Origin: Timonella senegalensis JC301 | GTDB lineage: Bacteria; Actinomycetota; Actinomycetes; Actinomycetales; Cellulomonadaceae | Direction of reading: 5' to 3' | DNA length: 64,000 nt | Assembly: GCF_000312125.1 (NCBI RefSeq) | Contig: NZ_HE978645.1 | Location: forward strand, 1 to 64,000 | Part shown: piece after piece, positions 5,110 through 33,936 of the stretch | How positions within the stretch are numbered: position 1 is the first letter of the stretch | Layout: each line of letters opens with the position of its first letter | Made by a program: the position numbers and the translations under genes | The notes under the pieces: model-generated | Databases searched by the model: none | The model's input: the letters and a program-made list of their open reading frames with translations, nothing else | What the model was told of the DNA's origin: nothing

Positions 5110-5132
5110 CTTATTCACGACGATTGACTCGC

Positions 5133-12795: not shown

Positions 12796-12838
12796 AGACC
12801 CTGTGTGTGCATCCGTGCAGACACAGGGTCTTTCTTTT
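12796..12838 (+). terminator. terminator-like hairpin
   Basis: Stem AGACCCTGTGT...ACACAGGGTCT with an inner TGCA/TGCA extension, a 4-nt loop (TCCG) and one mismatch, followed by TTCTTTT. It is the first plausible rightward terminator after the HAD gene, although 430 bp from its stop. Confidence 0.65.
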
Positions 12839-12891
12839 CGCTCCCGACCTTCCCAGTTCCCAGCGTCGCCAGCTCCCGAGATCCCGAGCTT

Positions 12892-12953
12892 CCCAGTTCC
12901 CCCAGTTCCCCAGTTCCCCAGTTCCCCCAGTTCCCCCAGTTCCCCAGTTCCCC
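12892..12953. repeat. CCCAGTTCC tandem repeat tract
   Basis: About seven head-to-tail copies of an 8-9 bp unit, (C)CCAGTTCC, differing in the length of the C-run. One isolated copy lies at 12852. It is non-coding and is a candidate length-variable locus. Confidence 0.75.
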
Positions 12954-12983
12954 CCCAGCGCCGGAGCTCCGGACACAAAACCA

Positions 12984-13047
12984 TCATCGAACGGATGATT
13001 ATTGATCCGTTCGGCATCCAACGGATCAATAATCATCCGTTCGATGA
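12984..13047. repeat. 64-bp near-perfect palindrome with nested inverted repeats
   Basis: Two perfect 28-bp arms with an 8-nt loop (CGGCATCC). Each arm itself contains an inverted repeat: CGAACGGAT - GATTATTG - ATCCGTTCG (12988-13013). The second arm carries the same outer parts with the spacer reversed (CAATAATC). There is no T-run, so it does not look like a plain terminator. Confidence 0.8.
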
Positions 13048-13092
13048 CACTTCACGCCACCGACTCCACCCACTCCACCCCATCCAAGGCAT

Positions 13093-13148
13093 CGAGAGTA
13101 TTCCTGAGCCCACTCTCGACGTCGAGAGTGGGCTCAGGAATACTCTCG
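13093..13148. repeat. 56-bp perfect palindrome with nested inverted repeats
   Basis: Two perfect 28-bp arms meet without a loop (centre GACGTC). Each arm holds CGAGAGT - 12-nt spacer - ACTCTCG, with the spacer reversed in the second arm. The architecture matches the 12984-13047 element, although the sequence is unrelated. Confidence 0.85.
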
Positions 13149-13269
13149 TTGGAGTGGGGAGAGGCGGACCCAGCGGAGTGGGGAGGGTCACGCCCGATTT
13201 CCATAAAACAACTCGCGCATATGACCGAGGGCCCATACCTCGCTTCTGCACACGTGAAACACTTCAAAC

Positions 13270-14286: not shown

Positions 14287-16287
14287 GTGACCACTAATAA
14301 CCAGTCGCCCGCACTGGAAAACATGCTGCACGAGACCCGAGCTTTCCCGCCAAGCCCTGAGTTCGCGGCGCAGGCGAACGCTCAAGCTGACATGTACCAG
14401 GCCGCGAGCGCCGATCGCCTTGAGTTCTGGGCGGACCAGGCCCGTAAGCACGTGACGTGGAAGGTTCCTTTCACTACGACTCTTGACTGGTCCGAAGCTC
14501 CCGTTGCCAAGTGGTTCGCGGACGGAAAACTCAACGCAGCGTACAACGCTGTGGACCGCCACGTCGCCGCAGGCAACGGAGACCGAGTTGCCCTCCACTT
14601 TGAGGGAGAGCCCGGCGACACCCGTACCGTCACCTATGCGGACCTTCAGCGCGAGGTCAATCGCGCAGCAAACGCCCTTGCAAGCATCGGAGTCCAGACC
14701 GGTGACCGCGTGGTCATCTACCTCCCCATGATCGTTGAGGCAGTCGTCGCGATGCTCGCGTGTGCACGCCTTGGTGCTCCACACTCCGTGGTCTTCGGTG
14801 GATTCTCGTCCGATGCACTCCGCTCACGCATCGCGGATGCAGGTGCGAAGGTCGTCATCACCGCGGACGGTGGATTCCGCCGCGGCAAGCCGTCAGCGCT
14901 CAAGCCAGCCGTGGATGAGGCAGTAGCTGCGGAAGGCTCGCCCGTCGAGCACGTGGTCGTGGTCGCGCGCACTGGCCAGGAGACCACCATGGTGGAGGGG
15001 CGCGATGTGTGGTGGAACGACCTCATGGAGTCCGCCGACGTCGAACACACTCCTGTGTGGGTTGACGCGGAGCACCCGCTCTTCATCCTCTACACCTCGG
15101 GGACCACGGGAAATCCCAAAGGCATCCTGCACACCACGGGCGGCTACCTAACTCAGACCGCATACACGCACTTCAACGTGTTCGACCTCAAGCCAGAGAC
15201 CGACGTGTACTGGTGCACAGCCGACATCGGTTGGGTTACCGGTCACTCGTACGTTGTTTACGGACCACTGCTCAATGGTGCTACCCAGGTCATCTACGAG
15301 GGCACGCCCGACTCGCCGCACCAAGGTCGTTGGTGGGAGATCATCGAGAAATACAAGGTCTCGCTGTTCTACACCGCCCCTACCGCGATCCGTACCTGCA
15401 TGAAGTGGGGCGAGGACATCCCCAACAAGTACGATCTGACCTCTCTTCGCGTACTCGGCTCCGTTGGCGAATCCATCAACCCCGAGGCGTGGATGTGGTA
15501 CCGGCGTGTTATCGGCGGCGACAAAGCTCCGATCGTGGACACCTGGTGGCAGACCGAGACCGGCGCGATCATGATCTCGCCGCTCCCCGGAGTGACCGCA
15601 ACCAAGCCGGGTTCGGCCCAGCGCCCACTACCGGGCATCTCTGCGGACGTAGTCAACGACTCCGCTGAGTCCGTGCCTAATGGTTCGGGCGGGTACCTCG
15701 TGCTGTCCGAGCCGTGGCCCGCAATGCTCCGTGGTATCTGGGGCGACCTCGAACGTTTCAAGGACACCTACTGGTCCCGATTCGACGGCCTGTACTTTGC
15801 CGGCGACGGCGCCAAAAAGGACGAGGACGGGGACATCTGGCTCCTTGGCCGAGTAGACGACGTCATGAACGTGTCGGGTCACCGCCTGTCCACTATGGAG
15901 ATTGAGTCCGCTTTGGTCTCGCACGACATCGTCGCAGAAGCGGCAGTGGTCGGAGCCGCAGACGACACCACAGGGCAGGCAGTGGTCGCGTTTGTCATCC
16001 TGCGCGAGCAGAGTGCTGACCAAGGTGCGACTCCGGAAGGCGTCGCCCAGATCCAGGAGGAACTGCGCAACCACGTGGCTAAGGAAATCGGCCCCATCGC
16101 CAAGCCGCGCAAGATCCTTGTGGTTCCGGAACTTCCTAAGACCCGTTCCGGCAAGATTATGCGCCGACTTCTTCGCGATGTCGCAGAGAACCGAGCGGTG
16201 GGAGATGCCACCACTCTGGCGGACTCGTCCGTGATGGATCTGATCGCGAGTGAGCTCTCGGGAACTCCAGGCAAGCCACAGGCGTAA
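14287..16287 (+). CDS. acs: acetate-CoA ligase (acetyl-CoA synthetase)
   Basis: An AMP-forming enzyme converting acetate, ATP and CoA to acetyl-CoA. Start GTG 14287 is preferred because GGAG sits 6 nt upstream; an ATG at 14263 would add eight residues. Length is about 666 residues, usual for Acs. Visible motifs: P-loop-like [11 protein letters not shown] (about 269-279), [27 protein letters not shown], and [11 protein letters not shown], whose Lys (about 623) is the known regulatory acetylation site. It appears to be a single-gene transcript ending at a hairpin just before the SseB-like gene. Confidence 0.95.
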
Positions 16288-30772: not shown

Positions 30773-31183
30773 TCAGTTTGCGGGTCACCACAGGGAAGTT
30801 GGGGCAAAATTGGGGCAAGGTTTCTGACGCTCGCCCGTTCGCAGGCCCCTAAGCGCGGTCTAACTCTGCAGGCTTACCGCACCAATTATCACTCCCAGCC
30901 GCCGGCCTCATACCCCCACCATGCCAGCGGCTCTCCTTTAACCCCCGCCATACCGTCCGACTCCGCATCTCTCACCGCTCTGCCAGCGCCTCCCTTCAAC
31001 CTCACCCGCCCCTTCCCCACGTGACTGCCGCTCATATGGGTTGAGTGCCGCCCCGCGGCGACGGCACTCACTGCAGGTGAGCGGCACTCGCGAGACTTGG
31101 GGGTTGCACGTAGACGAGCGGAAGCCAAAAGTTGAGCGCGCGGTCGACAAGGGTCGACTCGCGGTGCTTGAACGGGTTGAGTT
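30773..31183. other. gene-free spacer after tRNA-Lys
   Basis: No credible gene. Near 30799-30818 a TTGGGGCAAAATTGGGGCAA direct repeat follows the tRNA terminator; such repeats are seen beside tRNA genes used as integration sites, but no integrase is present. Around 31042-31070 lies the hairpin TGAGTGCCG/CGGCACTCA. The GAGTGCCG motif recurs near 31078, 31199, 31220 and 31240. Confidence 0.5.
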
Positions 31184-31240
31184 CCGGGTTTTGGGGTCGA
31201 GTGCCGGAACGCGGGGCCGGCACTCGACCACAAAACCCGG
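31184..31240. repeat. 57-bp palindrome upstream of reductase gene
   Basis: 24-bp arms (31184-31207 / 31217-31240) with a single mismatch and a 9-nt loop. Each arm is bounded by CCGG at both ends (CCGG-N16-CCGG), recalling the nested layout of the 13-kb palindromes. It lies 74 bp before the ATG at 31314. Confidence 0.7.
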
Positions 31241-31313
31241 CACTCGCGGAGGGAGAGGGGCAAAAGTGCCGCGGGCGGGGTGCGAGAAGCCGCCGATCCG
31301 CGAGGATGGGAGC

Positions 31314-33825: not shown

Positions 33826-33842
33826 CGCGCCCACCTGATTTT

Positions 33843-33895
33843 CGACGATCGTGGTCCCGTCCCAGCGTGATGCTGGGTCGGGACCACGATCGTCG
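33843..33895. terminator. ACGATCGT element, copy C, forming a terminator-like hairpin
   Basis: 17-bp perfect arms CGACGATCGTGGTCCCG (33843-33859 / 33879-33895) enclose a further CCCAGC/GCTGGG stem after one T-T mismatch, about 24 bp in all. It lies between the convergent small ORF and the iron ABC operon. It shares 25 bp with 21733-21757. Confidence 0.7.
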
Positions 33896-33936
33896 TAAAG
33901 CACTTTGTCACGCAGTGATGTGATGCAGGCCGGCGC

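Follow-up and report, generated by a model that had tools for sequence, protein, structure and literature searches.

Nested palindromes of Timonella senegalensis JC301 as probable members of two REP/REPIN-like miniature mobile repeat families

REP-like repeats are among the commonest repeats of bacteria. Those of Pseudomonas and the enterobacteria, the REPINs and BIMEs, are dispersed between genes, mostly as inverted doublets that each form a single long hairpin, show compensatory changes in their arms and form species-specific families, with singlets described as decayed (PMC3116915). The GTAG and CGTC superfamilies are defined by an unpaired end tag; the CGTC REPs, which have stems of 8–9 bp, loops of 4–5 nt and an unpaired CGTC tag, are mostly intergenic head-to-head dimers with a bias toward gene ends and no known dedicated transposase, and the spread of RAYT-less families was stated for them as an open question (PMC3733652). 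Rickettsia palindromic elements (RPEs) are palindromes of ~150 bp that are able to enter protein genes in frame, about half of them lying in genes (PMC10969869). Template switching at inverted-repeat arms, in turn, both homogenises the arms and inverts the spacers between them (PMC8604942).

The window analysed here is the whole stretch of 64,000 nucleotides at the start of contig NZ_HE978645.1 of T. senegalensis JC301, with a G+C content of 62% (60% in a 394-kb sample of the same genome). Within it the following features were located around two neighbouring palindromes, termed element 1 (family A) and element 2 (family B):

12796..12840, + strand: ordinary intrinsic-terminator-like hairpin and T-rich tail, preceding both elements (inverted repeat I3, then TTCTTTTCG)
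12841..12960, no strand: C-rich minisatellite of CCCAGTTCCC repeats, 5' of the A dimer (direct-repeat families D1 and D2)
12984..13047, no strand: full A dimer palindrome, arms 28 bp, loop 8 nt (inverted-repeat search; fold z -11.8)
12986..13015, + strand: family A unit 1, ATCGAACGGAT-GATTATTG-ATCCGTT(CGGC) (unit scan; 30-bp units recur genome-wide)
13016..13045, - strand: family A unit 2, inverted (unit scan)
13048..13090, no strand: C-rich linker from A dimer to B dimer, 43–45 bp (from the sequence; C-rich flanks are typical of all copies)
13090..13151, no strand: full B dimer palindrome, arms 31 bp, no spacer (inverted-repeat search; fold z -13.9)
13091..13120, + strand: family B unit 1, ATCGAGAGT-ATTCCTGAGCCC-ACTCTCGAC (pattern search and unit scan)
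13121..13150, - strand: family B unit 2, inverted (pattern search and unit scan)
13151..13187, no strand: G-rich 3' flank (from the sequence; flank signature)

Both giant palindromes of the original prediction are real, with fold energies beyond those of all 200 dinucleotide shuffles (z = -11.8 for element 1 and -13.9 for element 2). The 28-bp arms of element 1 (12984–13047) are 100% complementary around an 8-nt loop, and element 2 is perfect over 28 + 28 bp with no spacer (13093–13148), reaching arms of 31 bp at 97% over 13090–13151. The plan of inverted repeats within inverted repeats (X-S-X') was likewise recovered, as CGAACGGAT-8-ATCCGTTCG in arm 1 of element 1 and as CGAGAGT-12-ACTCTCG in both arms of element 2; in arm 2 of element 1 the inner X is reduced to AACGGAT. 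The natural building block is a 30-bp unit, the window elements being dimers of such units at 12986–13045 and 13091–13150, and the junction loop of element 1, CGGCATCC, is a diverged version of the sequence formed where two units abut, CGATATCG. The earlier description of two unrelated sequences stands for the cores and fails for the plan, as both elements belong to repeat families with a common plan. Neither element had a match in Rfam, for which the window yielded tRNAs only.

A 211-bp stretch of the window gave 91 matches in the organism's own genome (3,009,940 bp in six contigs). Pattern searches of this genome, together with a unit scan over retrieved stretches, counted 139 units of families A and B dispersed over 77 places, where they stand as 60 dimers, one trimer and 16 solos. 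Among the solos, C1:907587 is a duplicate created by an assembly gap, and C4:275332 sits beside a degenerate partner unit. The 30-bp unit of family A is ATCGAACGGAT-GATTATNN-ATCCGTTCGAT, with the general form ATCGAACGGAT-N8-ATCCGTTCGAT, and that of family B is ATCGAGAGT-ATTCCTGAGCCC-ACTCTCGAT, with the general form ATCGAGAGT-N12-ACTCTCGAT and a subfamily carrying the spacer ATTCTCTAGCCC. The ATCGA...TCGAT ends and the 30-bp pitch are common to the two families, and the A dimer junction, SGRYRYCS, is compatible with a diverged form of the two-unit junction. The 60-bp dimers consist of two abutting units, all at 30-bp pitch, and comprise 49 inverted (+,-), 10 direct and at most one opposite (-,+) arrangement, so the inverted dimer is the main form. 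The sole possible (-,+) dimer (C1:386293) is ambiguous, its spacer being nearly palindromic, and one of the direct calls (C1:633606) is weak. Direct dimers are most simply read as carrying single units with the spacer flipped. Solo units were no more divergent than the units of dimers.

Using a simple home-made codon-based gene caller, 76 of the 77 places were found outside predicted genes (42 between tandem genes, 18 convergent, 12 divergent and 4 at contig ends), and in tandem gaps the element lies closer to the 3' end of the upstream gene in 28 of 43. The neighbouring genes tested were ordinary or housekeeping genes; cargo or an autonomous parent between clustered copies was rejected, housekeeping genes alone being present there. 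In families A and B alike, the sequence on each side is strongly C-rich and G-poor over ~30 bp when read toward the element; the C-skew is 0.57 and 0.70 within 10 bp of it and near zero beyond 40 bp (0.00–0.02 in control intergenic sequence). Complementarity between the two flanks of an element was not above that of flanks swapped between elements. The signature may stem from a preference for certain targets, belong to the mobile unit itself or result from mutation acting locally. A third repeat (C) is enriched near A and B elements (0.17 vs. 0.03 'toward' copies per place), but it was rejected as an explanation for the C-rich flanks since a copy occurs at only 13 of the 77 places. Short tandem arrays, comparable to the CCCAGTTCCC-type minisatellite of the window, are present in the C-rich flanks of several other copies.

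Insertion was judged from a single empty-site comparison, that of an A dimer (C1:683364–683423) within the ORF of a UvrD-like helicase, where the extra residues are in frame. In thirteen helicase homologues, all from other genomes of the family, 23 residues are missing at exactly this point and the alignment is good on either side, which indicates that the dimer was inserted. The gap is of 23 codons against 20 from the element, and the remaining three may represent local divergence. Copying of larger segments was seen in a composite of B dimer, 13-bp linker and A dimer at C3:426413–426545, near ndk and smc, which recurs in inverted orientation at C2:98504–98636 near rsfS; the composites at these two unrelated loci are nearly identical over 133 bp and the similarity of their flanks fades within ~30 bp. 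The 77 dispersed places, the in-frame insertion with 13 empty homologues and the composite at two unrelated loci support the earlier suggestion of a fold-back mobile element. At the 3' flanks of the rRNA operons a B dimer occupies the same site on contigs C3, C4 and C5, while the copy on C2 is short by exactly one 30-bp unit, and this unit has been lost. The contig breaks fall at rRNA operons (contig ends L095, L096, L097 and L098); at each sequenced contig end the B element lies ~12 bp past the terminator-like hairpin of the operon, and similarity between operons ends at the element or within ~30 bp beyond it. Target-site duplications directly at the element ends were not above the shuffled expectation, and a MITE of a DDE transposon, with terminal inverted repeats and target-site duplication, was rejected on this ground; 5-mers common to both 15-nt flanks numbered 10 against 2.9 expected.

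The two arms of the dimers change together. Among 25 distinct B dimers, 8 of the 28 pairs of the long hairpin are changed on both sides, in 19 cells, a number reached in 0 of 500 shuffles and a signal that is lost when the partner is slid; among 17 A dimers, 8 cells are changed on both sides, mostly at one pair (0 of 500 shuffles). Some of the double-changed cells stem from the common ancestry of subfamilies. Such mirrored substitutions support the long hairpin, and the two short nested X:X' hairpins show zero double changes, which together indicate that X is kept as sequence and the long hairpin as complementarity. Changes on one side that leave a G-U pair are less frequent than double changes, and this fits copying between arms at the DNA level better than selection on RNA.

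Both families are restricted to this species among the genomes searched. Family B had no match in 222 genomes of the family; neither A nor B had a true match in 59 relatives or in a sample of 396 genomes of the order, where the few matches fall on the C/CACC-rich linker. Plasmids and phages, and viral contigs searched with exact patterns, were also without a match, and an origin from phage or plasmid was rejected. No nested X-S-X' plan was seen in the sampled relatives. The refuting condition named at the outset, a lack of similar nested elements elsewhere in this genome, does not hold, as the organism's own genome has many (77 places); in relatives none were found.

The elements work like REP/REPIN repeats. 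They share with REPINs and BIMEs (PMC3116915) the intergenic dispersal, inverted doublets, single long hairpin, compensatory arm changes and species-specific families, and a dispersed extragenic palindromic unit of 20–60 bp, as these are defined, is represented by 30-bp units (139 of them, 76 of 77 places extragenic), with 49 of 60 dimers inverted and covarying as hairpins. Unlike REPINs and BIMEs, the A and B units abut without a spacer, their solos are not decayed, no GTAG-type tag is present and a second genome with an A or B repeat was not found among those searched. The Y1 transposase domain (Y1_Tnp, PF01797) gave nothing in the organism's own genome (positive control, 5 of 14 genomes), and mobilisation by a RAYT was rejected. 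The ends of A and B are the paired ATCGA/TCGAT and not the unpaired tag that defines the GTAG/CGTC superfamilies (PMC3733652). Membership of the REP/REPINs is therefore not claimed, given that neither the RAYT association nor the GTAG/CGTC tags apply. The likeness to the CGTC REPs (PMC3733652) lies in the predominance of head-to-head dimers, the lack of a known dedicated transposase, the intergenic position and the bias to gene ends, whereas stems of 8–11 bp, spacers of 8 or 12 nt and the missing unpaired tag set A and B apart. As with RPEs (PMC10969869), a palindrome has entered a protein gene in frame, but the dimers are of 60 bp and only 1 of 77 places is in a gene. The mirrored substitutions and flipped units match the arm homogenisation and spacer inversion of quasipalindrome template switching (PMC8604942), a process which differs in altering existing repeats and does not by itself disperse copies.

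It is probable that the window palindromes are members of two REP/REPIN-like miniature mobile repeat families. Their building block is the 30-bp X-S-X', and the form that would spread is the 60-bp head-to-head dimer, which folds into one ~28-bp hairpin and mostly enters intergenic sequence, often close to the end of a gene, with an occasional in-frame insertion within one. An enzyme reading the single-stranded or cruciform hairpin, and not of the known Y1/RAYT family, would drive the spread; afterwards, template switching by DNA polymerase between the arms would keep these identical and sometimes flip one spacer, and slippage between direct X repeats would remove one unit. The actinobacterium is culturable, and its single genome holds two RAYT-less families, one clear empty-site insertion, one unit loss and measurable arm homogenisation, which makes the birth, spread and decay of such repeats testable. 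Nesting also separates two constraints, with X fixed in sequence and the long hairpin fixed only in complementarity.

That the elements are instead transcription terminators or 3' mRNA-stabilising hairpins under selection for RNA structure is unlikely, strong as the hairpins are. The mirrored substitutions, the B dimers just past every rRNA-operon end and the lean toward the 3' ends of upstream genes would suit such a role, but a T-run (at least 5 T in 10 nt) is present at 5 of 154 element ends, an ordinary terminator already precedes the element in 12 of 46 upstream genes with at least 60 bp of room, copies also lie between divergent genes and inside one gene, and the scarcity of G-U intermediates relative to double changes suits DNA-level copying better. 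In the window neither end of the elements carries a T-run, as had been noted, and the view that this is not normal terminator behaviour agrees with the genome-wide counts; termination was rejected as the main role.

It is quite improbable that the repeats are binding sites, be they nucleoid, gyrase or repressor-like, with the conserved X motif as the functional part. Conservation is highest at X and X', between which there is no covariation, and the ends and pitch common to two families would be consistent with such sites, but the elements are species-restricted with two unrelated cores, one has been inserted in frame in a gene and a composite has been copied, and any binding could be secondary, as with the BIMEs of E. 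coli. A site-specific inversion substrate, with a recombinase turning over the spacer that X and X' enclose, was an earlier suggestion that we regard as very improbable. Direct (+,+) and (-,-) dimers do share the 30-bp pitch of the inverted ones, but X repeats of 7–9 bp would make a short recombinase site, and the proportions of 49:10:≤1 (inverted, direct and opposite dimers) are far from the flipping equilibrium of 1:2:1 expected if units flip freely, which speaks against a dedicated switch. A scan of 20 neighbouring proteins turned up no recombinase. Occasional flips of the spacer are plausible and could be accounted for by template switching, a process with documented inversion of such spacers (PMC8604942).

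Turning back to the reading as mobile repeats, it is conceivable, though doubtful, that a single, still undescribed mobiliser of a non-RAYT kind recognises hairpins and disperses several unrelated families of long nested palindromes in this genome, namely A and B, the X-S-X/X'-S'-X' family and a family with GATTnTCGACGAT ends whose interior varies but stays self-complementary. In the unbiased 394-kb sample, palindromes with arms of at least 24 bp number 25 per Mb; two relatives, with 200 kb sampled in each, have 0 and 10 per Mb, and the numbers behind these densities are small.

The long palindromes of the 394-kb sample include the GATTnTCGACGAT-ended family and a GAGTGCCGG family. Repeat C, an oriented repeat (GATTnTCGACGATCnTGGtc..tCCCagC) far more abundant than A and B, has 313 matches with at most 2 mismatches in this genome, against 0–8 in each of 38 relatives, and ATTNNCGACGAT occurs 99 times in 331 kb where 0.3 are expected. 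It is found genome-wide and in the window at 5118, 12584, 21745, 25085, 33843/33888, 41951, 42073 and 45058. Inverted pairs of it form near-perfect palindromes of ~60 bp (window 33839–33899; L129:9850–9908; L136:9488–9548; L143:4424–4479; L147:19723–19785), in which the ends are conserved and the interiors differ between copies yet are self-complementary. The GAGTGCCGG palindrome family, dispersed at ~12 places including window 31179–31245 and L140:3798–3870, has direct repeats within its arms (X-S-X/X'-S'-X', where X is GAGTGCCGG), and the same plan with other sequences was found at L138:571–639 and L138:1539–1609. Sites resembling parS (TGTTTCACGTGAAACA) were seen within longer palindromes at L139:8001–8036 and 14353–14390.
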